Below, piece by piece: positions 33,140 to 55,024 of a stretch of 64,000 bases of DNA (positions are counted from its first letter, which is position 1; each line of letters starts with the position of its first letter). The position numbers were made by a program, and so were the translations under genes. The notes under the pieces are model-generated. The model searched no databases and was not told the DNA's origin. It saw only the letters and a program-made list of their open reading frames with translations. The DNA is taken from contig NZ_AP024463.1 in NCBI RefSeq assembly GCF_019973735.1, positions 744,001-808,000 on the forward strand. The letters run 5' to 3'. The stretch comes from Arachnia rubra (GTDB lineage Bacteria > Actinomycetota > Actinomycetes > Propionibacteriales > Propionibacteriaceae).

Positions 33140-34111
33140 ATGCATATCGCGATCCATGCCTTCGAGGGCATCACTATGTTCCACCTGGCCGCTCCGCTGC
33201 TGGTCTTTAACGAGGTGACCCGGCGAGGTCTAGCCGACGACTGGAGCACCGTAGTGTGGAGCGACGATTCAGAGCCAATCGTTAGCGCTGAGGGTCTACG
33301 GGTCAGCAATGTCGTTTCCCTTCAGGATGTGGAGCCAGCCGACGTGCTGGTTTTTCCATCCTGGCGAACTGACGGGATGGTCCCCAGCGATGAGCTGATA
33401 CGGCTGATCAATGACGCCCATACGCGTGGTGCGACCGTTGTTGGGCTTTGCTTGGGTGCGTTTCCGGTAGCAGCCAGCGGGATTGTGGACCGTAGGAGTG
33501 TTGTCACGCACTGGGCTGCGGCTGCACGACTCAGAGAACTATGTCCGAGAGTGAAGGTCTGTGACACTGCGCTCTATCTGGACCATGGTGACGTCTTGAC
33601 CTCTGCCGGTACTGCTTCTGCCCTTGACGCCTGTCTACACCTGGTGAGGAACCGGCTCGGGGCCGCGGCAGCAGCAGAAGTTGCCCGGCACCTCGTTGTG
33701 GCTCCACACCGCGAAGGCGATCAAGCCCAGTACATTGAGCGACCGGTCCCAGCGGAAAGAACTGGGCCGATATCAGAAGTTATGACGTGGGTGCTGACGA
33801 ACCTAGACCATCCGCTGACCGTCCCTGAACTTGCTGCTCGTGCTGCTATGAGCGTCCGGAACTTCAGTCGTAGATTCCGTGAGATGACGGGACTGCCTCC
33901 GGCGCGGTGGGTACAGGCTCGCCGACTCGATGAGGCCCGCCGACTGCTGGAGGTCACGTCTTGGTCGGTGGAGAAAGTGGGCCGTTCCTGTGGCTTTGCC
34001 AGCGTCGTGACGTTCCGTCAGGGTTTCATGGCTGCCTACTCGACTACGCCGACATCATATCGGCGTCGTTTTACCGCCGAGCCATCGCGCGAGGAAATTA
34101 AACAACAGTAG
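33140..34111 (+). CDS. GlxA-type AraC-family regulator (DJ-1/PfpI + HTH)
   Basis: A 323-residue transcription factor. An N-terminal DJ-1/PfpI-like domain (about 1-190, nucleophile-elbow cysteine Cys104 in VGLCLGAF) probably senses a ligand. A C-terminal pair of AraC helix-turn-helices spans about 215-315, with AARAAMSVRNFSRRFREMTG and VGRSCGFASVVTFRQGFMAAY. It is divergently transcribed from the cysteine hydrolase gene across a 92-bp gap and is probably its activator. Its last 14 bases overlap the end of the convergent HIRAN gene. Confidence 0.88.
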   Translation: MHIAIHAFEGITMFHLAAPLLVFNEVTRRGLADDWSTVVWSDDSEPIVSAEGLRVSNVVSLQDVEPADVLVFPSWRTDGMVPSDELIRLINDAHTRGATVVGLCLGAFPVAASGIVDRRSVVTHWAAAARLRELCPRVKVCDTALYLDHGDVLTSAGTASALDACLHLVRNRLGAAAAAEVARHLVVAPHREGDQAQYIERPVPAERTGPISEVMTWVLTNLDHPLTVPELAARAAMSVRNFSRRFREMTGLPPARWVQARRLDEARRLLEVTSWSVEKVGRSCGFASVVTFRQGFMAAYSTTPTSYRRRFTAEPSREEIKQQ

Positions 34112-34808
34112 CCTCAAGCTTGCAAAGCACCGCCAGATGGGGTGGGGCGTCGTGGTTGACCTGATCAACGTAGATGCTCACTGATCCCTCTTGGCGGAGG
34201 CGGTGTGCATCGTCGACCAGCCAGTCTGGCAGATAGCCGACCGGGTGTCCGTCTGCATTGAGTAGTATGGCGCGTTCATTGACCGGGTTGTGTGGCTCGT
34301 CTTTCAATGCCAGTTCCTGTCCTGGACGGAGGGCACCAAGCAGCTCCAGTCCTGGAATGACATGACGCATGCCGGAGATGAAGAATCGTCCTTCGCAACG
34401 ACCCTCGCGAAGATTGAAATCCTCGACGAGCTGGTAAAAGTCAGTAGCCCGGCCTCCTCCGGTGCGGGCCATGATCTCGACTGGCAAGGCGTCTGGGTCG
34501 AGTCCTAGCCAGCCGACATACTGGTCGTAGCTTGGGCGCCGACGGTTCATGACTCGGTTGGCAAAGAAGGCTGGCAGCACCTCTGATACATAGGTCTGGG
34601 AAGGGTCTGGATACTGCGAGACGTAGGTGAAACCGTCGATATCGACTGCCTCCGGGGTGTACCTGAAGCAGTACCGGCCATCGGCCAAGGCTTCGAGCCA
34701 GCCGACATGGCTGTACCGGCCAGTTTTTGGATCCTTCCAGATCAGGCGCAGCCTACGGTCCTTCGTGGTGGCTACAGGCGAGTGGGCTTCAGCGAGCGCT
34801 GAGTGCAT
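34098..34808 (-). CDS. HIRAN-domain protein with HipA-N-like region, partner of HipA-like kinase
   Basis: A 236-residue protein. Residues about 18-130 (RLIWKDPKTGRYSHVGWL, then a strand-rich part with VLPAFFANRVMNRR) resemble the N-terminal subdomain of HipA proteins. Residues about 141-232 read as a HIRAN domain, with FFISGMRHV, GQELALKDEPHNPVNERAILL and VGYLPDWLVDD; HIRAN domains bind DNA ends or branched DNA. It overlaps the end of the upstream kinase gene by 20 nt, so the two are co-translated. The N-terminus and the kinase together look like a HipA protein split over two genes. Its role is unknown; nucleic-acid sensing for a toxin-like kinase is the attractive idea. Confidence 0.65.
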   Translation of the reverse strand: MHSALAEAHSPVATTKDRRLRLIWKDPKTGRYSHVGWLEALADGRYCFRYTPEAVDIDGFTYVSQYPDPSQTYVSEVLPAFFANRVMNRRRPSYDQYVGWLGLDPDALPVEIMARTGGGRATDFYQLVEDFNLREGRCEGRFFISGMRHVIPGLELLGALRPGQELALKDEPHNPVNERAILLNADGHPVGYLPDWLVDDAHRLRQEGSVSIYVDQVNHDAPPHLAVLCKLEATVV

Positions 34809-35715
34809 CGAGCAGCCTCCTTCGGTTCATCTCAACGATCTTGCAGGCAAGGCTACCTCGCTTGGCTGACAGGATCTCTGCTGGGAAGGCTCTTGCTGCC
34901 TCAACGACGTCTTCAAGGCAGAAATCGAGGAGGCGGCAGCGGAAGTACTCTCGGCTGGCTTGGGAAGCAAGACGTAGCGCCTTGATAGCGAGCTCGATAA
35001 GGCGGGGTTTGCCGGCAAAGTACTTATTCCGGCCTTTCATAAGCCATTTCTTCAATTGTTCAGTGTCCTCTAATAATTCCTGTACGCGGTTATCTGGTTC
35101 AGCGAATCCGAGGGCGTTTCCATGATCGAAGGTTGGTGTCAATACGCTCGAATCGTGGTCAGGTGACTTCAGAATACCCCAATTCGTATGGTGATGGTCG
35201 CAGCCGGAAACCAGTGCATCAAGCATTAAATAGCTAGCTAACACGTCAAATGCAGTCCAGCGGGTATAAGGAGGTGGCCCAGTCATTTCCCTTAGAGCAA
35301 TTTGAATATTTTCTACCGTGTATAACTTATATTCGCGTTCCGTGGAGCTGTCATATCCCTTGATGGCTTTAGCCAGTAGCTCGTTGCCATGTTCAAGCTC
35401 TTGTCCATTTTTTAGGAAGGTGTGAATTAGAACGCCTCTTTTATTGTCTCGCAGCGCAAGAGACGTACATACAGAGGGCAAGCCGAGGTTTTGTGCAACG
35501 ACATGCACAAGGCATTCTGCCCAGTCTTCTCCGCGGGTGAAGCCATCTTTGTTGCGTGCCTGCTTCCAGAGCCATCGCTCGTCTTTTTCTTGGCTACGGA
35601 GCCAAAACTTTTCCTTCGTTCCCATTTGCTCGTCGCCGTCTATGTTGAACGAGCTCACGTCGACGGGGACCCAGTCGTAGGGCGGACAGCCTTGGCAGTG
35701 AAATGACATTTTCAA
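34789..35715 (-). CDS. HipA-like Ser/Thr kinase (standalone catalytic domain)
   Basis: A 308-residue kinase-like protein. SGCDHHHTNWGIL (170-182) corresponds to the catalytic D-R-H-x2-N loop of HipA, with Asp173 and Asn178. TFDHGNALGF (195-204) supplies the metal-binding Asp197. WLWKQAR near residue 51 supplies a candidate ATP lysine, and an N-terminal C-x2-C pair is present. HipA toxins phosphorylate tRNA synthetases. No HipB-like antitoxin is adjacent; the following overlapping gene encodes a HIRAN protein. The DNA is clearly poorer in GC than its neighbours, suggesting transfer. An IS5-family element lies 9 bp upstream of the ATG. Confidence 0.7.
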   Translation of the reverse strand: MKMSFHCQGCPPYDWVPVDVSSFNIDGDEQMGTKEKFWLRSQEKDERWLWKQARNKDGFTRGEDWAECLVHVVAQNLGLPSVCTSLALRDNKRGVLIHTFLKNGQELEHGNELLAKAIKGYDSSTEREYKLYTVENIQIALREMTGPPPYTRWTAFDVLASYLMLDALVSGCDHHHTNWGILKSPDHDSSVLTPTFDHGNALGFAEPDNRVQELLEDTEQLKKWLMKGRNKYFAGKPRLIELAIKALRLASQASREYFRCRLLDFCLEDVVEAARAFPAEILSAKRGSLACKIVEMNRRRLLDALSAR

Positions 35716-36436
35716 ACCTTCCAGGAGGCTTATTCATAGGGGTGTTTTGGCTTTCCCCAGCTAACACTTTACCCGAGGGGGATGTGAGGGCGGCTTGCCC
35801 GATCTGAGATAATTCAAAATGCAGAAAGAAAACCCTCAGATGAAAGACAAGCCGCCGCCGTGAATACTACCACAAGCCTTGACCGTGACCAGATCCTCAA
35901 CCTGTGCGAACTGATCCACACATCCCGTTCCGGAAACCTTCCCCCGGCAGGGTCCCGTGTCCTGGGCTTGTTCCGCTGTATCCAGGTCACTGTGTTGATA
36001 TTGCGGCACAATCTCACCCAGGAGTTGCTGGCCGACATCCACACAGTCTCCCAAGCCACCATCTCACGAGTGGTGGCGGTCTACACTCCCCTGATCGCCG
36101 AAGCCCTCCAGAACTGGGTGCCCAGTGTGGGGGACCTCGACCCGGACCGTCAGTACATCATCGACGGTACTCTGGTGTCCTGCTGGTCGTGGCACGACCG
36201 TCCCGAGCTGTACTCAGGCAAGCACCACACGACGGGGGTGAACCTGCAAGTGGCCTGCACCCTGGCCGGACAGCTCGCCTGGATCTCCCCGCCCCTGCCG
36301 GGTAGTGTGCATGATGCAAAGGCCATCAAGGAATCCGGCTTCCTCGCAGCCCTCGACAGTCAAAGTCATATTGGAGACAAAGGCTACATCGGATTGGGGA
36401 TGATCACCCCCGCGAAGAAACCCGCCCATGGTGAAC

Positions 36437-37510
36437 GGCGGTGTCAAGTGGTGGAAGCAACGAGTAGTTTCTGGAAAGCTTCTCGTGGGGTGAGGTAGCC
36501 GAGGGTGGCTCGGGGGCGTTCGTTCAGTTCTTCGGCGATGGCTGTGAGATAGGGCTGGTGTTGGGGGATGGGAGTGCCTTTGGGTAGGTAGTCACGGATG
36601 AGTCGGTTGGTGTTCTCATTGCTGCCGCGTTCCCAGGGAGAGTGGGGATGGGCGAAGTACACCGGCATCTGGGTGGCCATGGTGAACGCGGCGTGCCGGG
36701 CCATCTCAGAGCCCTGATCCCAGGTCAGGGTGCCCTTCATCAATTCGGGCAGCCCAGTGATGTGGTCGATCAGGGCGTCACACACCCCGTCTGCGTTCTT
36801 GCCCTTCGGCAGGGCGAGGATCGTGACGAACCGGGTGGTTCGTTCGACGAGGGTGATCGCGGCTGTTCTGCCGTAGGCGCCGATGATCAAGTCTCCTTCC
36901 CAATGACCGGGAACCTTCCGTCCTGTAACCTCCTGAGGCCGCTGATCGATACTGACCATTCCCACAATCGGGGATTTCCGCTCACCCAAACGACGCCGGG
37001 ACTGACGGCTAGTGCGTTTCGACCCGAGCATGACACCGTGCTCCCGCAGCGTCTTCTTCGGCATCGCATAAATCCAGGTGTAGATCGCTTCATGAGACAC
37101 GCTCGCTCCTTGGGCCGTGGGGGAACCCTGACACGGTTCAAGCCTGTCACCCCCAGCCTCAGCACGTAATCTTCCCGCGATCTGACGTGGTGTACGAGAC
37201 CTCCGAAGATCAGCAATCACCCGCTGCTTCAACACCAGATCAGCATCAATCTTGCGGGGCTTGGGCCGGGCACGCCGCCGCTGCGCAGCTACATCAGCAG
37301 CCACACACTTGTACCCCGTCTCACCCTGATTCCGGGCCACTTCCCGCGAAACCACCGACACATCCCTACCAATCCGCCGAGCAATCTCACGTAACCCACA
37401 CCCCTCCGCCAAGCCCCTCGCGATCCCAGCCCGATCCGTCACCGTCAACAACCGCCGCACCAACAACCCCTCCTTAACAAGCACTGTTGCTACGACCCTA
37501 TGACACCACC
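36437..37510 (-). mobile_element. IS30-family insertion sequence, copy 1
   Basis: A 1,074-bp element with imperfect terminal repeats: left GGCGGTGTCAAGTGGTGG, right (read inward) GGTGGTGTCATAGGGTCG, both continuing with AGCAAC. It is flanked by a 3-bp duplication AAC (36434-36436 and 37511-37513). It carries one transposase gene on the minus strand and is inserted in the IS5 transposase gene. Confidence 0.92.
36444..37460 (-). CDS. IS30-family transposase, copy 1
   Basis: A 338-residue DDE transposase with an N-terminal helix-turn-helix (LAEGCGLREIARRIGRDVSVVSREV, about residues 15-40) and the IS30 catalytic core: VSIDQRP and GHWEGDLIIG with the first Asp, TWDQGSEMARH with the second, and NENTNRLIRDYLPKG with the Glu. 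I place the start at GTG 37460, eight bases after AAGGAGG within the element; longer frames run outside the IS. It differs from copy 2 by one residue (REAFQ here, REVFQ there). Intact and potentially active. Confidence 0.92.
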   Translation of the reverse strand: MRRLLTVTDRAGIARGLAEGCGLREIARRIGRDVSVVSREVARNQGETGYKCVAADVAAQRRRARPKPRKIDADLVLKQRVIADLRRSRTPRQIAGRLRAEAGGDRLEPCQGSPTAQGASVSHEAIYTWIYAMPKKTLREHGVMLGSKRTSRQSRRRLGERKSPIVGMVSIDQRPQEVTGRKVPGHWEGDLIIGAYGRTAAITLVERTTRFVTILALPKGKNADGVCDALIDHITGLPELMKGTLTWDQGSEMARHAAFTMATQMPVYFAHPHSPWERGSNENTNRLIRDYLPKGTPIPQHQPYLTAIAEELNERPRATLGYLTPREAFQKLLVASTT

Positions 37511-37635
37511 AACTCACCGACAGCGACAAAAGAAACAACACGACCATCAACCGCGTCCGCTACCTCATCGAACGTGTCATCGCGAACGTCAAAACCTGGC
37601 GTGTTCTACACACCGATTACCGCCGCCCCTACAAC

Positions 37636-38709
37636 GGCGGTGTCAAGTGGTGGAAGCAACGAGTAGTTTCTGGAAGACTTCTCGTGGGGTGAGGTAGCCG
37701 AGGGTGGCTCGGGGGCGTTCGTTCAGTTCTTCGGCGATGGCTGTGAGATAGGGCTGGTGTTGGGGGATGGGAGTGCCTTTGGGTAGGTAGTCACGGATGA
37801 GTCGGTTGGTGTTCTCATTGCTGCCGCGTTCCCAGGGAGAGTGGGGATGGGCGAAGTACACCGGCATCTGGGTGGCCATGGTGAACGCGGCGTGCCGGGC
37901 CATCTCAGAGCCCTGATCCCAGGTCAGGGTGCCCTTCATCAATTCGGGCAGCCCAGTGATGTGGTCGATCAGGGCGTCACACACCCCGTCTGCGTTCTTG
38001 CCCTTCGGCAGGGCGAGGATCGTGACGAACCGGGTGGTTCGTTCGACGAGGGTGATCGCGGCTGTTCTGCCGTAGGCGCCGATGATCAAGTCTCCTTCCC
38101 AATGACCGGGAACCTTCCGTCCTGTAACCTCCTGAGGCCGCTGATCGATACTGACCATTCCCACAATCGGGGATTTCCGCTCACCCAAACGACGCCGGGA
38201 CTGACGGCTAGTGCGTTTCGACCCGAGCATGACACCGTGCTCCCGCAGCGTCTTCTTCGGCATCGCATAAATCCAGGTGTAGATCGCTTCATGAGACACG
38301 CTCGCTCCTTGGGCCGTGGGGGAACCCTGACACGGTTCAAGCCTGTCACCCCCAGCCTCAGCACGTAATCTTCCCGCGATCTGACGTGGTGTACGAGACC
38401 TCCGAAGATCAGCAATCACCCGCTGCTTCAACACCAGATCAGCATCAATCTTGCGGGGCTTGGGCCGGGCACGCCGCCGCTGCGCAGCTACATCAGCAGC
38501 CACACACTTGTACCCCGTCTCACCCTGATTCCGGGCCACTTCCCGCGAAACCACCGACACATCCCTACCAATCCGCCGAGCAATCTCACGTAACCCACAC
38601 CCCTCCGCCAAGCCCCTCGCGATCCCAGCCCGATCCGTCACCGTCAACAACCGCCGCACCAACAACCCCTCCTTAACAAGCACTGTTGCTACGACCCTAT
38701 GACACCACC
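37636..38709 (-). mobile_element. IS30-family insertion sequence, copy 2
   Basis: A second 1,074-bp copy in the same orientation, with the same terminal repeats and its own AAC target duplication (37633-37635 and 38710-38712). The two copies are separated by only 125 bp of IS5 sequence. The only differences I see are two adjacent bases near the 3' end of the transposase (AG versus GA), so both insertions, or a local duplication event, are recent. Confidence 0.92.
37643..38659 (-). CDS. IS30-family transposase, copy 2
   Basis: Same 338-residue transposase as copy 1, with GTG start at 38659 behind AAGGAGG and one residue difference (Val in REVFQKLL). All catalytic motifs are intact: GHWEGDLIIG, TWDQGSEM and NENTNR. 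It ends 7 bases from the element edge. Probably functional. Confidence 0.92.
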   Translation of the reverse strand: MRRLLTVTDRAGIARGLAEGCGLREIARRIGRDVSVVSREVARNQGETGYKCVAADVAAQRRRARPKPRKIDADLVLKQRVIADLRRSRTPRQIAGRLRAEAGGDRLEPCQGSPTAQGASVSHEAIYTWIYAMPKKTLREHGVMLGSKRTSRQSRRRLGERKSPIVGMVSIDQRPQEVTGRKVPGHWEGDLIIGAYGRTAAITLVERTTRFVTILALPKGKNADGVCDALIDHITGLPELMKGTLTWDQGSEMARHAAFTMATQMPVYFAHPHSPWERGSNENTNRLIRDYLPKGTPIPQHQPYLTAIAEELNERPRATLGYLTPREVFQKLLVASTT

Positions 38710-38791
38710 AACACCTTCGAAACCACAATACAAGCCGTCACAGGACTCATCTTCGCCTACAGTCTATGAATAAGCCTCCAGGTCATCAGAG

Positions 38792-40084: not shown

Positions 40085-40477
40085 TCAGCGACTGGACCTC
40101 TGCGCCGGGTCGGGGTATCGCCAGTCGGCGAGGGCGGCTGCGATCCTAGCCCGGTTCAGACCGGTGCTGGCTATCGCCATCACCAGGTCGAAGGCCTCGT
40201 CGTCAGGGGCGTCGAGAGTGATGTTGTTCAGTCCGAGGAACACCACAGTTGCCAGCCAGCCCAGGCGTTTATTGCCGTCGACCAGGCCGTGATTCTGGAT
40301 GCTGGCCTCCAGCAGGACGGCTGCCTTCTCGGTCAGGCTGGGGTATGCCTCGTGACCCCACACTACGGTCTGTGGACGATGAACCGCAGACTCCAGCAGC
40401 CCCACATCACGAACTGGGCCGACACCCAGGTCGTCAGCCAGGGCTAGGAGATCCTCAAGGGTGAGGTAGCTGGTCAC
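40085..40477 (-). CDS. doc: Doc-family toxin (Fic fold, death-on-curing)
   Basis: A 130-residue Fic-fold protein. The catalytic motif HGLVDGNKRLG (about residues 63-73) matches Doc, which phosphorylates elongation factor Tu and stops translation. The N-terminus (YLTLEDLLALADDLG, VRDVGLLESAVHRPQTVVWG) is also typical. Its ATG overlaps the stop of the upstream ribbon-helix-helix antitoxin gene (ATGA), giving an antitoxin-first operon. Confidence 0.88.
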   Translation of the reverse strand: MTSYLTLEDLLALADDLGVGPVRDVGLLESAVHRPQTVVWGHEAYPSLTEKAAVLLEASIQNHGLVDGNKRLGWLATVVFLGLNNITLDAPDDEAFDLVMAIASTGLNRARIAAALADWRYPDPAQRSSR

Positions 40478-40677
40478 CGTCCGAGACGATCCAGCAAGGA
40501 GGCATAGCGTGAGCGGGCTTGGGCTGACAACCTGTCGACAGCCTGCTCATGCCCTTGCCGGGCGGCGGCCTCGCGGATTGCCCGGATGGTGGCCTCCTGA
40601 CGGCTGACCCCCTGAGAGTCGGCGAGGTCGGCCAGGATCTGCTCATCAGCGGGGGTGAGCCGGAGAGTCATTGCCAT
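40474..40677 (-). CDS. Ribbon-helix-helix antitoxin for Doc
   Basis: A 67-residue protein with an N-terminal beta strand (MTLRLTPADEQ) and two helices typical of CopG/MetJ DNA-binding dimers, then a charged C-terminal tail that would cover the toxin. It precedes and overlaps doc. Most Doc toxins pair with Phd-type antitoxins, and an RHH partner is a common actinobacterial variant. The palindrome at 40687-40703 just upstream is a probable autoregulatory site. No ribosome site precedes the ATG, consistent with a leaderless mRNA. Confidence 0.82.
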   Translation of the reverse strand: MAMTLRLTPADEQILADLADSQGVSRQEATIRAIREAAARQGHEQAVDRLSAQARSRYASLLDRLGR

Positions 40678-42395: not shown

Positions 42396-43636
42396 GGGAT
42401 GCTCACCTCCAGGGTGGTGGGGCCGCCTGCCGGGCTTGCCAGGCGGAGTGTGCCGCCGGCGGCGCGTACCCGCTGGGTGATTCCGTCGAGCCCGCCGCCG
42501 GGCTGCACCTCGGCGCCTCCCACGCCGTTGTCCTCCACGCGGACCCACAGCCTTGCCTCCGGTGTGCCGGCGTCGTGGAGCCGTCCCAGCACCTGGCATT
42601 CGCTGGCGTGGGAGTGCTTGGCGGCGTTGGTGAGGGCCTCGGCGATGATGAAATAGGCGGCAGCCTCCACCTCGCGGTAGCGGGAGTTATCGATGAGAGC
42701 GCGGTCAGCTAGTCGCATATCCAGCTGCACTGGCACATGACTGCGAGCGGCCAGCGCCGAGAGCGCGGCGTCGAGCCCGCGATCAGCCAGCACCGAGGCG
42801 TGAATGCCGCGGGCGAGCTGCCTGAGCTCGGTGATGGCTGCCTTCGTTGATGTGTGGGCCTCGGTGACGAGTTCGCGGGCGCTCGCCGGATCGGTCTCGA
42901 TCTTGTGCTGGGCCAGGCCGAGCGTCATTCCGATGGAGACCAGCCGGGGCTGGACGCCGTCGTGGAGGTCGCGTTCGAGGCGGGTGCGCTCCAGGCTGGC
43001 GGCCCGGACGGCGCCTTCGCGCTGCTGACTGCTGGCCTCGGCCGCCGCGGTCAGCTCCTTCCGGCTGGGGCGGCCCACCAGGTTCACCGCGATCACGGTA
43101 TGGGCGTATGCCGCCAGTGGGGTGAGGAGTAGCGCGGCGACCCCTCCCAGGATGAACAGCACGCCAACTCCCAGGCCCGCCTGATCAAATTCCATGGCGC
43201 CCTGCATGATCAGTGTGATGCAGGCCGGGATGCTGACCACCACGAGAAGGCCAAAGACAGAAGCCAGCATGAATGAGCTGAACGGGCGCCAGAACTGCGG
43301 CGAGATGACCTGCCGCAGCAGCCACCGCAGTGTTGCCCAGACTCCCTTGCCGGACCGAGGCGCCAGCCGCATCTTCATCCGGGGCAGGCCGTAGAGAGTC
43401 TGCACCCGAACAGTCTCGAAATAGGCTGCGCCGATCGCGATACAGGCCAGCAGCGCGAAAAACACAAGCCCGAGCCCGAAGACAGGCAGGGTCACGATGC
43501 TGACGACGAGCAACACCGTGACCAGCGCCATGGTGATGTTGCCGACCACACCCATCAGGGCGAGGTGGCTGACCGTGAACAGTAGAGTCCCGGCGCCCCG
43601 TCTGGTCGGCCTGGGTGCCGGGGAAGAATCCGTCAT
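42383..43636 (-). CDS. Membrane histidine kinase (NarL/DesK class)
   Basis: A 417-residue sensor kinase. Four hydrophobic helices (about 19-70 in two pairs, and about 120-180) make a compact intramembrane-sensing domain. A HisKA_3 dimerisation helix with phospho-acceptor His in RDLHDGVQPRL (about 222-232) follows, then the HATPase_c domain with NAAKHSHAS (N box) and VEDNGVGG (G1). There is no large extracellular loop, as in intramembrane-sensing kinases that respond to cell-wall stress. It partners with the overlapping response regulator and shares an operon with the DUF4097 protein. Confidence 0.9.
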   Translation of the reverse strand: MTDSSPAPRPTRRGAGTLLFTVSHLALMGVVGNITMALVTVLLVVSIVTLPVFGLGLVFFALLACIAIGAAYFETVRVQTLYGLPRMKMRLAPRSGKGVWATLRWLLRQVISPQFWRPFSSFMLASVFGLLVVVSIPACITLIMQGAMEFDQAGLGVGVLFILGGVAALLLTPLAAYAHTVIAVNLVGRPSRKELTAAAEASSQQREGAVRAASLERTRLERDLHDGVQPRLVSIGMTLGLAQHKIETDPASARELVTEAHTSTKAAITELRQLARGIHASVLADRGLDAALSALAARSHVPVQLDMRLADRALIDNSRYREVEAAAYFIIAEALTNAAKHSHASECQVLGRLHDAGTPEARLWVRVEDNGVGGAEVQPGGGLDGITQRVRAAGGTLRLASPAGGPTTLEVSIPCAS

Positions 43637-45270: not shown

Positions 45271-46647
45271 GTGCTTCTGACTCTCACCTCGACGGCTCAC
45301 GACGCCGATGACCTCGGCTACCTGCTGCACAAACACCCTGACCGGGTGCAGCAGCGCGACCTGCCGGGTGGCGTCGCCACTGTGTTCTACCCCGAATCGG
45401 GGCCCGGGCGCTGCACAGTCGCGCTGCTGGTCGAGGTCGACCCCGTGGCCCTGGTGCGTGGCACCCACAAGGACTCCTTCGCCCTCGGCCAGTACGTCAA
45501 CGACCGGCCTTATGCTGCGGCGTCATTGCTGGCGGTCGCACTCGGACGACTGTTCGGAACTGCAATGAATGGGCGTTGCGACGCTTGTCCCGACCTGGTC
45601 GGGGTGCCGCTGCCTCTCAGCGTCCGGATTTCCGCGCTGCGGACCTCACCCGAGCTGGCGCGACGCCTGTTCGCACCCCTGGGATGGCAGGTCGAGACTG
45701 AGGAGGTCCCCCTGGCTGAAGGGTTCGACTGGGGGACAGCCCCGCACATCGGCCTAACCCTGACCGGTGAGCAGCGCCTGGCCGATGCGCTGAGCCATCT
45801 CTACGTCCTGCTGCCCGCCCTGGATGGCGTCAAGCACTACTGGGTCAGCCGTGACGAGGTGGACAAACTGCTGCGCCGTGGCGAGCGCTGGCTGGCCGCC
45901 CACCCCGAACGCGACCTGATCACCCGCCGCTACCTCGTGGCCCGGGACCTGAGCGAGGATGCTCTCGCCCGTCTCGACGCCCTGGATGATGCTGCTCCCG
46001 GGGCGGCAGCACCGGAGGAGATTGTCCCGGCTGATGACGCTCGCCCGCTGCGGCTGGACCGCCGCGACGCGGTGTTGACCGTGCTGCGTGAGGTGGGCGC
46101 GCACCGCGTCGTCGATCTCGGCTGCGGCGAAGGTTTCTACCTGCGGGCGCTGCTCGACGACCCCGCGTTCACCGAGATCCTGGGCGTCGACGTGTCCGCG
46201 CGCGAGCTGGAACGTGCGGAGCAGCGCCTGGCTCGGCTACCCGACCGGCAGCGGGAACGGATCCGGCTCCGCCAGTCATCGGCCACCTACCGCGACGACG
46301 AGCTGACGGGCTTTGACGCCATGCTGCTGGTCGAGGTGATCGAGCACCTCGACCCAGACCGGCTGGGTGCCCTGGAGGTCAACGTCTTCGGGCATGCAAG
46401 GTCGCGTCACGTCGTTGTGACAACACCCAACGCCGAGTACAACGCGCGCTACGAGATCCCCGAGGGGCAGTTCCGCCATCCGGACCACCGGTTCGAGTTC
46501 ACGCGCGGCCAGTTCCGGCAGTGGGCTGAGCGCGTCGCCGGGGAATACGGCTACCGGGTGGAGACCCGGCCGGCCGGGCCATCCGACCCGGAGCTCGGCT
46601 CACCCACCCAGCTGGCGCTGCTCACCCTGGAGGTCCCGCATGACTGA
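45271..46647 (+). CDS. hen1: 3'-terminal RNA ribose 2'-O-methyltransferase Hen1
   Basis: Methylates the 2'-OH at the 3' end of a cleaved RNA before ligation by Pnkp, which protects the repaired junction from re-cleavage. The 458 residues consist of an N-terminal domain (1 to about 245) characteristic of bacterial Hen1 and a C-terminal methyltransferase with SAM motif VVDLGCGEGFYL (280-291), metal ligands in EVIEH (355-359) and the HPDHRFEF block (403-410). The start is GTG 45271. Its last 8 nt overlap the start of pnkp, so the two repair proteins are made together. Confidence 0.95.
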   Translation: MLLTLTSTAHDADDLGYLLHKHPDRVQQRDLPGGVATVFYPESGPGRCTVALLVEVDPVALVRGTHKDSFALGQYVNDRPYAAASLLAVALGRLFGTAMNGRCDACPDLVGVPLPLSVRISALRTSPELARRLFAPLGWQVETEEVPLAEGFDWGTAPHIGLTLTGEQRLADALSHLYVLLPALDGVKHYWVSRDEVDKLLRRGERWLAAHPERDLITRRYLVARDLSEDALARLDALDDAAPGAAAPEEIVPADDARPLRLDRRDAVLTVLREVGAHRVVDLGCGEGFYLRALLDDPAFTEILGVDVSARELERAEQRLARLPDRQRERIRLRQSSATYRDDELTGFDAMLLVEVIEHLDPDRLGALEVNVFGHARSRHVVVTTPNAEYNARYEIPEGQFRHPDHRFEFTRGQFRQWAERVAGEYGYRVETRPAGPSDPELGSPTQLALLTLEVPHD

Positions 46648-49141
46648 ACCCATCAAACTGCCGGTTCCGGAGCTATCGCTGGTGGTGCTCGTCGGCGTCT
46701 CCGGGTCGGGGAAGTCCACCTTCGCCGACCGCGTCTTCGAGCCTTTCGAGGTGGTCAGCTCCGACTTCTGCCGCGGCCTGGTCTCCGGCGACGAGAACGA
46801 CCAGTCGGCCTCAGCGGACGCCTTCGACGTGCTGAACCACATCGTCGGCAAGCGTCTGGACCGCGGCCTGCTGACCGTCGTCGACGCCACCAACGTGACA
46901 CGCGAGGCCCGCGCCGAGCTGGTGAGACTGGCCCGCGACCACGATGTGCTGCCCGTGGCGATCGTCCTCGACATCGACGCCAAGGAAGCCATCGCCCGGA
47001 ACCGCGCCCGGCCCGGCCGCGGCTTCGGCAACGGTCCGATCCAGCGACAGGCCCAGGCCCTGCGCCGCTCGCTGCGCGGCCTCGGACGGGAGGGCTTCCG
47101 CAAGGTGCACCGTCTGGGCAGCCCCGCCGACGTGGATGCCGCGGTCATCGTCCGCGAGCGCCTCCTCAACGACCGCCGCGACCTTCACGGTCCCTTCGAC
47201 ATCATCGGCGACGTTCATGGCTGCCTCGACGAGCTGGTGGAGCTTCTTGGTGAACTCGGCTACACCATCACCCGCGATGACCAGGGCCGCCCCGTTGACG
47301 CGGCCCACCCGGAGGGACGCACCGCGTTCTTCGTCGGTGACCTCATCGACCGTGGCCCCTCATCGTTGGGTGTGTTGCGGCTGGCGATGGGCATGGCCGC
47401 GGCAGGTCACGCCATCGCGGTGCCCGGCAATCACGAGGCCAAGCTGATCCGCGCCCTCGACGGCAAGAACGTCCAGGTGGGACATGGCTTGGAGACCACG
47501 CTCGCGGAGCTGGATGCGGAGACTCCCGAGTTCCGCAGGCAGGTGCGCGACTGGTGCTATGACCTGGTCGCCCACCTCGTGCTGGATGACGGACGACTCG
47601 TCGTTGCCCACGCTGGCCTGAAGGAGGCCTACCACGGGCGGGCGTCGGGCCGGGTGCGGTCCTTCGCGTTGTACGGCGACACCACCGGAGAGAGCGACGA
47701 GTACGGCCTGCCGGTGCGCTATCCGTGGGCCGAGGACTACCGTGGCCGGGCGATGGTGGTCTACGGACACACCCCCACACCGACCCTCGACTGGGTCAAC
47801 AACACGCTGTGCCTGGACACAGGATGCGTGTTCGGCGGGAGGCTGTCGGCGCTGCGCTACCCGGAACGGGAGACCGTCCAGGTGCCTGCGCGACGGGTCT
47901 ACTACGAACCCGCTAGGCCCCTCGTCGCCCCAGGACGTCCCAGCGACGAGCTGCGCATCAGCGACGTCACCGGGCGCAGGACCGTCGAGACCTCGGAGCT
48001 GGGGCGGCTGACCATCCCGGCGGAGAGCGCGGCGGGTGCTCTGGAGGTGATGAGCCGGTTCGCGCTGCACCCGGGCCTCCTGCCGTACCTGCCGCCGACC
48101 ATGTCGCCGGTGGCCACGTCGTCGCGTCCTGACTACCTCGAACATCCCGACGAGGCCTTCTCGCAGTACGCCGACTGGGGCGTCGGGGAGGTGATCTGCG
48201 AGGAGAAACACATGGGGTCGCGGGCCGTGGTGTATCTGCGGGGCGACGGTGCCGTCTACACCCGCACCGGGCGGGCCTTCTTCGGTGCGGAGCTGTCCCG
48301 CGAGTTCCTGGGCCGGGTGCGGCGCGCTGCCGAGACGACGGGGCTATTCGACGAGCTGGGCAGCGACTGGCTGCTGCTGGACGCGGAACTCCTTCCGTGG
48401 TCGTTGAAAGCCGGAGAGCTGCTGCGCAGCCAGTACGCACCCGTTAGCGCGGCGGGCCGGCTGGCGCTGCCCCCGACGGTCGAGGTGCTGGGCCAGGCGG
48501 CCGCGCGAGGCCTCGACGTCGCCAAGCTGCTGGAGCGCAGCCGCACCCGGCTGCAGAACATCGACGCCTACGACCAGGCCTGGCGGCGCTACGCCTGGCC
48601 AACGTCCGGACTCGACGGAGTGCAGCTCGCCCCCTTCCAGGTGCTGGCCGCGGAGGGGACATCGTTCGCCGGCCGGGATCACCTGTGGCATCTGGGCGTC
48701 GCTGACCGGCTCGTCGAGGCCGATCCCGGACTGTTCCGCACGACGCGGCGGCTGGTGGTTGACACCGCCGGCGAAGCCAGCCGCACCGAGGGCGTGCGCT
48801 GGTGGGAGGAACTGACGGCCGGCGGCGGCGAAGGCATGGTGGTCAAGCCCCTCGCCAACCTGACCCGCACCGGCCGCGGCTCCCTGGCCCAGCCCGGGTT
48901 GAAGGTGCGGGGCCGCGAGTACCTGCGCATCATCTACGGCCCCGACTACACATCGCCCGAGAACCTGACCCGGCTGCGGAATCGCAACCTGGGGCGCAAA
49001 CGTTCCCTGGCGCTACGGGAATACGCGCTGGGACTGGAATCGGTCTCCCGGCTGGTCGCAGGTGAGCCGCTGTGGCGCATCCATGAGGCCGTCTTCGCAG
49101 TCCTGGCCCTGGAGTCTGAACCCGTCGATCCGAGGCTGTAG
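46640..49141 (+). CDS. pnkp: Polynucleotide kinase-phosphatase-ligase Pnkp (bacterial RNA repair)
   Basis: A three-domain RNA end-healing and sealing enzyme. In 833 residues there is a 5'-OH kinase with P-loop GVSGSGKST (19-27), a binuclear metallophosphoesterase with GDVHG (190-194), GDLIDRG (233-239) and GNHE (263-266), and an adenylyltransferase/ligase domain in which Lys523 of EEKHMGSR is the nucleotidyl-accepting lysine. With Hen1 it repairs RNAs, probably tRNAs, cut by ribotoxins that leave 2',3'-cyclic phosphate and 5'-OH ends. Length and motif spacing match the Clostridium thermocellum enzyme. All three active sites look intact. Confidence 0.95.
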   Translation: MTEPIKLPVPELSLVVLVGVSGSGKSTFADRVFEPFEVVSSDFCRGLVSGDENDQSASADAFDVLNHIVGKRLDRGLLTVVDATNVTREARAELVRLARDHDVLPVAIVLDIDAKEAIARNRARPGRGFGNGPIQRQAQALRRSLRGLGREGFRKVHRLGSPADVDAAVIVRERLLNDRRDLHGPFDIIGDVHGCLDELVELLGELGYTITRDDQGRPVDAAHPEGRTAFFVGDLIDRGPSSLGVLRLAMGMAAAGHAIAVPGNHEAKLIRALDGKNVQVGHGLETTLAELDAETPEFRRQVRDWCYDLVAHLVLDDGRLVVAHAGLKEAYHGRASGRVRSFALYGDTTGESDEYGLPVRYPWAEDYRGRAMVVYGHTPTPTLDWVNNTLCLDTGCVFGGRLSALRYPERETVQVPARRVYYEPARPLVAPGRPSDELRISDVTGRRTVETSELGRLTIPAESAAGALEVMSRFALHPGLLPYLPPTMSPVATSSRPDYLEHPDEAFSQYADWGVGEVICEEKHMGSRAVVYLRGDGAVYTRTGRAFFGAELSREFLGRVRRAAETTGLFDELGSDWLLLDAELLPWSLKAGELLRSQYAPVSAAGRLALPPTVEVLGQAAARGLDVAKLLERSRTRLQNIDAYDQAWRRYAWPTSGLDGVQLAPFQVLAAEGTSFAGRDHLWHLGVADRLVEADPGLFRTTRRLVVDTAGEASRTEGVRWWEELTAGGGEGMVVKPLANLTRTGRGSLAQPGLKVRGREYLRIIYGPDYTSPENLTRLRNRNLGRKRSLALREYALGLESVSRLVAGEPLWRIHEAVFAVLALESEPVDPRL

Positions 49142-54338: not shown

Positions 54339-54749
54339 TCAGGTGATCGACACGATCTCGACCATTTCCTCAAGCCCGGTGAAATCTGCGGCATTTCTTG
54401 TAATGAGTGGGAGCTTCTCTGCGATTGCCACGGAGGTGATCAGCAGATCAGCGAAACGACGTCTCGGCTGTCTCCCCATCGCCAGAACCGCTGAGTAGAC
54501 ACGGCCGTAAGCGCGGGCGGCCTCGGTGGTGAAAGGAATTGGGTCGAAGACGGCTTCTGCACGTTGAAGCCTGTCCTGGCGGCGTGCGCGTTCGCCCGGG
54601 TCATTGCAAGCTGCTGGCCCGGCGGCGAGTTCGGCCATTGTAATCACTGATACCGCCACCTGTTCGGGAAGTAGTTCTGCGGGAATGTGCTCCAGATCGA
54701 TCACCACTGATGTGTCGAGCAAACCCGCAGCGAGCCGCTGCCTAGGCAC
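54339..54749 (-). CDS. vapC: PIN-domain toxin (VapC family)
   Basis: A 136-residue PIN-domain ribonuclease-type toxin: [11 protein letters not shown] (first acidic residue), MAELAAG (second), [26 protein letters not shown] (third acidic cluster and core strand). The start is GTG 54749, nested in the last codons of the Phd-type antitoxin gene so that translation is coupled. VapC toxins cut tRNA or rRNA. The partner antitoxin is directly upstream. Confidence 0.9.
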
Positions 54750-54996
54750 GAGGCACGCAGGTCTGGTCGATCGCCTCGTCCAGGTCGGCCTGGAACTTCT
54801 CATGGTCCAGAGGAGGTGCGTTTCTGAAGACTTCAGTCACGGCGTGAGCATCCACGAGCCTTTGACGGCGCATAGGACGAAGTTCTCCGACAGGCTGGCT
54901 GTGCCGGGTCACGATGAAGCTCTGCCCCTCGTCCAAGGCACGCATGATCCGGCCGCTGTCATTGCGAAGTTCTCGTTGGCTAATGACCTCACTCAT
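54742..54996 (-). CDS. Phd/YefM-type antitoxin
   Basis: An 84-residue antitoxin. The N-terminal Phd DNA-binding fold reads SEVISQRELRNDSGRIMRALDEGQSFIVTRHSQPVGEL, and the C-terminal tail (VTEVFRNAPPLDHEKFQADLDEAID) would bind the toxin. ATG 54996 is preferred over an ATG six codons upstream because the latter lies inside the operator. A perfect 21-bp palindrome just upstream (55004-55024) overlaps the -10 box, typical of autorepression. Confidence 0.9.
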   Translation of the reverse strand: MSEVISQRELRNDSGRIMRALDEGQSFIVTRHSQPVGELRPMRRQRLVDAHAVTEVFRNAPPLDHEKFQADLDEAIDQTCVPRA

Positions 54997-55002
54997 GAGC
55001 CA

Positions 55003-55024
55003 ATTGTAGCACATTGTGCTACAA
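55003..55024 (-). promoter_or_regulatory. Operator palindrome and -10 of Phd-VapC operon
   Basis: TTGTAGCACA-T-TGTGCTACAA (55004-55024) is a perfect 10+1+10 palindrome. On the minus strand its edge forms TACAAT (55008-55003), a consensus -10 whose expected start point falls on the antitoxin ATG at 54996, again suggesting a leaderless mRNA repressed by its own antitoxin. Confidence 0.7.

Follow-up and report, generated by a model that had tools for sequence, protein, structure and literature searches.

Two overlapping genes lie on the minus strand at positions 34098–35715 of the 64,000-nucleotide stretch of Arachnia rubra DNA that we analysed (the window), and both reading frames were confirmed from the ORF list and the sequence. 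The first gene, PDC-M03A, encodes a HipA/CtkA-type Ser/Thr kinase (34789–35709; 306 amino acids counted from the ATG), and the second, PDC-M03B, encodes a HipS-HIRAN protein (34098–34808; 236 amino acids) identified with Pfam, PADLOC and a structure model. The ORF list starts the kinase at a TTG at 35715, which is probably two codons too early; the ATG at 35709, with GGAAGG 7 nt ahead of it, is the likelier start. The 20-nt overlap between the genes (34789–34808) was present, as a preliminary description of this DNA had reported. Within the kinase gene, an AAGGAGG (34816–34822) stands 7 nt ahead of the ATG of the HIRAN gene at 34808. Judging from this site and the overlap, the two genes are likely to be translationally coupled.

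The kinase matched the PADLOC model PDC-M03A (PDLC04342) at 1.9e-96 over residues 15–305, and Pfam HipA_C at 1.1e-6 (28.9 bits), slightly below the curated cut-off of 30.5. NCBIfam gave no model for the kinase or the HIRAN protein at E up to 1. The AlphaFold model of the kinase (pLDDT 90.8) displayed a HipA-type fold supported by PDB matches, and the protein combines this fold with the Lys, catalytic Asp, Asn and metal Asp expected of a Hip kinase. The residues present in the window kinase are K49, E65, D171, N176 and D195. In two alignments of family kinases, of 37 and 18 rows, which share the window kinase and one further row (L001), residues K49, E65, D171, H173, N176, W177 and D195 are invariant (37/37 and 18/18). 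Position 172 is Arg in 36 of 37 and 17 of 18 kinases, and H172 of the window kinase is the sole exception in both sets. The CDHHHTN loop singled out in the preliminary description is therefore there as claimed but atypical; the family loop is DRHxxN, and the window kinase alone among the 37 carries His. HipA and HipT autophosphorylate a Ser/Thr in the glycine loop. At the site nearest that position, which directly follows G30, 20 of 37 kinases have Ser/Thr, and the window kinase has T31.

The partner protein matched PADLOC PDC-M03B (PDLC04347) at 1.5e-71 over residues 17–235, Pfam HIRAN at 2.8e-6, above the cut-off, and Couple_hipA, the Pfam model for the HipA N-terminal domain, at 5.1e-4, slightly below it. 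Its AlphaFold model (pLDDT 89.7, pTM 0.83) and PDB fold matches place both folds within a single chain: a HipS-like domain at residues 17–131 (34416–34760, minus strand) and a HIRAN domain at residues 134–236 (34101–34409, minus strand). Among the 15 partners of alignment A3, the HIRAN model matched 13 and the HipA N-terminal model 4, so the HipS assignment rests mainly on fold; as modelled, the HIRAN protein has an inhibitor-like domain of HipS type in its front half. Y50, F82, R85, R91, D123, N174, G191 and P194 are invariant in 39 aligned partners, with N174 thus found in 39/39 and R148 in 33/39.

Profiles, AlphaFold models and PDB fold matches therefore agree with the domains first read by eye, namely a HipA-type kinase and a partner joining the missing HipA front part to a HIRAN domain: Pfam matched HipA_C, Couple_hipA and HIRAN, and the HipA and HIRAN folds were both found in the models and the PDB matches. 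This agreement, together with the pairing of the genes in 32 of 32 genome loci described below, rules out that the ORFs arose by chance or that the domains were wrongly assigned.

The pair is not new; it is already catalogued in PADLOC as PDC-M03. We take PDC to mean phage defence candidate, the description field in PADLOC being blank. A PDC-M03A match lies adjacent to a PDC-M03B match, with the 20-nt overlap, and both window proteins match almost end to end; no sequence difference from the catalogued system was seen. Bicistronic operons of a Hip kinase and a HipS-HIRAN protein, as well as fused kinase-HipS-HIRAN proteins, were reportedly described by Gerdes, Baerentsen and Brodersen (mBio 2021), and the window pair shares the bicistronic layout. 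Similar to HipBST of E. coli (PDB 7ab3) and HipS-HipT of Legionella pneumophila (PDB 8ezr), the window pair consists of a HipT-like kinase and a separate HipS-like protein. In contrast to both, we found no HipB with it, its HipS domain is fused to HIRAN, and its kinase gene comes first. The Helicobacter pylori kinase CtkA (PDB 3akk) is 15% identical to the window kinase. Relative to the HIRAN domain of human HLTF (PDB 4s0n, 4xzf, 6kcs), that of the window comes without a helicase and is joined to a HipS-like domain.

We surveyed the distribution of the kinase in overlapping samples of order, phylum, family and class genomes. The PDC-M03A model matched 14 of 293 genomes of the order sample strongly (at 1e-70 or better) and, with the other three scans cut at 1e-30, 7 of 396 phylum, 10 of 198 family and 12 of 394 class genomes, A. 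rubra itself being included in these counts. None of 14 control genomes was matched. When the window kinase alone was scanned once against the named genome collection, it found one relative, in Bowdeniella nasicola. Adding Bowdeniella to the 31 loci from the PDC-M03A searches gave 32 whole-genome kinase loci, and in all 32 a HIRAN gene follows directly downstream on the same strand (at L087 the kinase is in pieces). This survey of adjacency, which the preliminary description had called for, disposes of its worry that homologues might never co-occur. Weak kinase matches, from 1e-3 to about 1e-12 and mostly of 380–600 amino acids, the size of canonical HipA, were left out of the pairing count; one of those dropped (G164, L022/L056) turned out to be the remains of a kinase attached to a HIRAN frame. 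Seven plasmid records hold the kinase and all seven match the HIRAN protein nearby (six of the seven were opened); in one of them an IS110 lies between the kinase and HIRAN genes and may clip the end of the kinase. Six phage records hold the kinase, five of which also match the HIRAN protein, the sixth encoding a fused protein (three of the six were opened).

The A. rubra genome holds a second kinase-HIRAN pair (G000:C1:246984-247931; L002, L042), whose kinase is 31% identical to that of the window and carries the DRH loop. On the kinase tree this sister copy pairs with a copy from a type I restriction operon (G223). The window kinase groups with six others, namely two copies from its genus and those of Bowdeniella, G268, G282 and a Rhodococcus plasmid; this group of seven is well supported, and three of its members are restriction-linked.

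Viral-contig scans with single proteins as query found no relative; a scan with the kinase alignment found 22 loci. Fourteen of these have a separate HIRAN-type partner, five encode a fused protein (three of them, L106–L108, are near copies), two have a HipS-only partner, and one is cut by the contig end. The HipS-only partners are 131 amino acids long, match Pfam Couple_hipA and have no HIRAN domain (L102:2713-4126 and L116:7893-9306), indicating that HIRAN is not always needed. In P2-like prophages (L098, L106, L114), a replication nicking protein is encoded upstream and a portal gene lies downstream, and the record of E. coli phage 899 shows the same slot, between nicking protein and portal genes. 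An integrase gene adjoins the pair in two more phages, one of Vibrio (assigned to Vinavirales) and one of Clostridioides. One E. coli P2-like phage encodes a fused kinase-HipS-HIRAN protein (L041:3908-5467), and of 5426 E. coli genomes, 61 carry this form at ≥99% identity; the rows listed label it a HIRAN domain-containing protein.

Loss of the pair was one-sided. Searching the family with the PDC-M03B model revealed 14 loci in 13 of 198 genomes, 11 of which accompany the 11 kinase loci. Five loci (L056, L087, L088, L093, L096) retain the HIRAN gene with a kinase that is damaged or vestigial, or with none at all. Of the three remaining family loci, L093 retains a 40-amino-acid kinase remnant, L056 has an in-frame remnant of the kinase C-terminus, and L096 shows no kinase within 1.4 kb of upstream sequence. 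A plasmid record from Oscillatoria has a HIRAN gene with a 39-amino-acid kinase remnant. A whole kinase without its partner was seen at none of the loci examined, one contig-end case aside. Such one-sided loss would be expected of a toxic kinase and its guardian; the observation is indirect, and the two directions were sampled unequally, with the HIRAN side searched in the family, plasmids, phages and viral contigs (with one protein) only.

Hip kinases are known for antibiotic persistence; HipA and HipT phosphorylate tRNA synthetases, and HipS blocks HipT. The HIRAN domain of HLTF binds DNA ends. What we observed comprises the domains, the pairing of the genes, the fused form, the mobile and restriction-linked settings and the loss of the kinase alone. 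We put at roughly one half the probability that the two genes form a toxin-antitoxin-like defence module of the PDC-M03 kind, in which the HipS-HIRAN protein restrains the kinase and DNA ends release or aim it. The first protein would act as a HipA/CtkA-type protein kinase with a complete active site, and the HipS-like half would most likely dock on it as the missing N-terminal subdomain and keep it quiet. The HIRAN half would bind DNA ends, and free or odd ends could serve as the trigger, whether they come from phage replication, from breakdown of the chromosome or from cutting by a neighbouring restriction enzyme. Once bound to them, HIRAN would release the kinase or bring it into action, and the kinase would phosphorylate a growth-stopping target, probably in translation as with other Hip kinases. 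The presence of a partner in 21 of the 22 viral loci (HipS-only in 2 of the 21) favors this defence module. Several features count against it: the two HipS-only viral loci; the position of the kinase gene, which comes first, unlike the order in many antitoxin-first pairs; the poor conservation of the glycine-loop Ser/Thr at its nearest site; and the majority of genome loci (26/32), where no restriction enzyme was found among the neighbours scanned, several contigs being short. As a candidate function, the phage-defence role suggested in the preliminary description gains support from PADLOC PDC-M03, the cargo positions in prophages and the restriction links.

An ordinary stability (addiction) module would also be carried by plasmids and prophages. 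The HipS-HIRAN protein would then be a plain antitoxin, with HIRAN replacing HipB as the autorepressor of the operon and sensing nothing. That no HipB gene was found beside the pair fits this explanation, as does the structure of HLTF HIRAN that was, by its entry title, solved with duplex DNA (6kcs), and broken kinases beside intact HIRAN genes would fit any antitoxin. However, joining kinase, HipS and HIRAN in one chain, as in the five fused viral loci, of which three are near copies, and in the E. coli phage, argues against a plain unstable antitoxin, since one that must be freely degraded cannot work in that form, and both the recurrence in one slot of P2-like phages and the restriction operons speak for defence. 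We consider the addiction module unlikely. Under the defence reading, the HipS-only partners suggest that restraint may not need HIRAN, which fits HIRAN as an added sensor.

Restriction genes are a recurrent neighbor of the pair. Type ISP or type I restriction genes adjoin it in 6 of 32 genome loci and on one plasmid, and 6/32 is a lower bound because several contigs are short and only selected neighbors were scanned. The Rhodococcus plasmid has the order hsdR-hsdS-kinase-HIRAN-hsdM, its three hsd genes confirmed by Pfam, and one genome (G223) has hsdM-hsdS-hsdR-kinase-HIRAN. In three others (G237, G687, G113) a type ISP restriction gene extends with its 3' end 4 nt into the kinase gene, the G113 type ISP gene being split by an IS; in G268 a 2-nt gap separates the type ISP gene from the kinase, and in G282 the type ISP gene follows 256 nt after the pair. 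Looser associations were left uncounted: type I genes starting 3.8 kb away (L080, G922), a divergent HmaA/DrmD-like helicase beside the pair (L086), and a DUF499/DUF1156 methylase cluster alongside a Nostoc plasmid copy. Large ORFs beside L049, L050, L077, L086 (one of two) and L043 (three) had no PADLOC match. A preprint by Payne and colleagues is said to describe defence genes that sit within immune systems.

Of the 198 genomes of the family, 38 carry type ISP genes: 6 of the 10 kinase genomes compared with 32 of the 188 others (p 0.004). An estimate for type ISP adjacency, which takes loci as independent and genome size only roughly, gave p ~2e-12; counting once the near copies L045, L046 and L078, which make up three of the five loci, gave 3/4 and ~1e-7 by hand. 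Mapped on the 37-row kinase tree, the restriction label must change four times or more along well-supported branches, and thus the link did not arise once and stay.

These contexts raise the alternative that the pair is an accessory of DNA-translocating restriction enzymes, watching or controlling type I and type ISP systems, with the kinase phosphorylating a restriction subunit when the wrong DNA is cut. The direct adjacency, with a 4-nt overlap or 2-nt gap in four cases, and the enrichment of type ISP genes in kinase genomes speak for this explanation. Yet no adjoining restriction enzyme was found at 26 of the 32 genome loci, where several contigs are short and some neighbors were scanned, and none was found for the sister copy (scanned against an RM reference) or in the three phage records opened. 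No restriction gene was recognised among the ORFs beside the window pair, and the window genome has no type ISP match at 1e-20. We regard a dedicated accessory role as improbable.

Within the defence module, we speculate, with considerable doubt, that HIRAN is the sensor that switches the kinase: DNA ends from translocating restriction enzymes or phage replication would bind HIRAN and pull HipS off the kinase, turning a restriction hit or failure into growth arrest. If so, type ISP or type I enzymes and the pair would form a two-layer system, restriction first and suicide second. More generally, an inhibitor-like half joined to a domain resembling a DNA-end binder, in a pair that moves with prophages and occurs beside restriction genes, suggests a possible direct line from DNA damage or invasion to a kinase that stops growth. 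Operons with type ISP or type I genes recur and are a concrete setting for asking what HIRAN senses. The module is real, well formed and of a catalogued kind, and its value lies in this handle on HIRAN sensing, foremost in the restriction-linked copies.

The setting of the window copy bears out much of what had been noted about it. GC content is 0.50–0.58 at the pair and about 0.65 over most of the window, consistent with the AT-richer DNA claimed, and the block is indeed rich in IS elements. The pair is flanked by a convergent AraC-type regulator gene and IS remnants. One remnant (35721–38782) is bounded by 19-nt terminal inverted repeats (35721–35739 and 38764–38782) and holds two tandem, near-identical IS30 copies 1199 bp apart, which interrupt a transposase frame (35860–36498). 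The AraC-type gene, left of the pair, was matched at 1e-40 in 5 other genomes of the genus; the MFS gene right of the block had no match at 1e-80 in the 38 other genomes of the genus searched. The reported absence of a HipB antitoxin also holds: the operon consists of two genes, neither HipB-like, and no HipB-like gene was found among the neighboring ORFs, profile scans there covering the isochorismatase, AraC-type, transposase and Fic genes. We reject a classical hipBA locus because this search turned up nothing HipB-like and because it is the partner that carries the front domain; an upstream gene could have been displaced by the IS.

The inverted repeat of the IS remnant ends 11 nt upstream of the kinase ATG, and the natural promoter has therefore probably been displaced. 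A promoter scan covering one promoter type found no promoter-like site on the strand of the pair and one on the plus strand. A terminator scan yielded nothing useful, and Rfam gave no match at the gathering score. The proximity of the IS end and the unique change from R to H suggest that the window copy may be impaired. It could even be a decaying relic in A. rubra, a prospect compatible with the other explanations, for which the second copy, with its family loop intact, also speaks. Against decay, neither frame is interrupted and each has a good ribosome site, all five core catalytic residues have been retained, the promoter scan was limited to one type, and the IS may supply its own promoter. 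On balance we lean against decay while giving it a real chance, and regard the window copy as one more, possibly impaired, member of the PDC-M03 group.

An ARAGORN tmRNA call with an odd tag peptide (42611–42993, plus strand) lies inside an opposite-strand ORF resembling a sensor kinase and is probably false. A Doc-type death-on-curing toxin gene (TIGR01550, Pfam Fic; 40085–40677, minus strand) is preceded by a 67-amino-acid ORF that has no NCBIfam match and may be its antitoxin. ORFs of 154 and 90 amino acids (54339–55014, minus strand), adjoining a patch of 50% GC, resemble by eye a VapC/VapB-type toxin-antitoxin pair. About 10 kb from the kinase-HIRAN pair, at 45271–49141 on the plus strand, are genes for Hen1 and Pnkp, the bacterial RNA-repair pair (NCBIfam TIGR04074 and TIGR04075).
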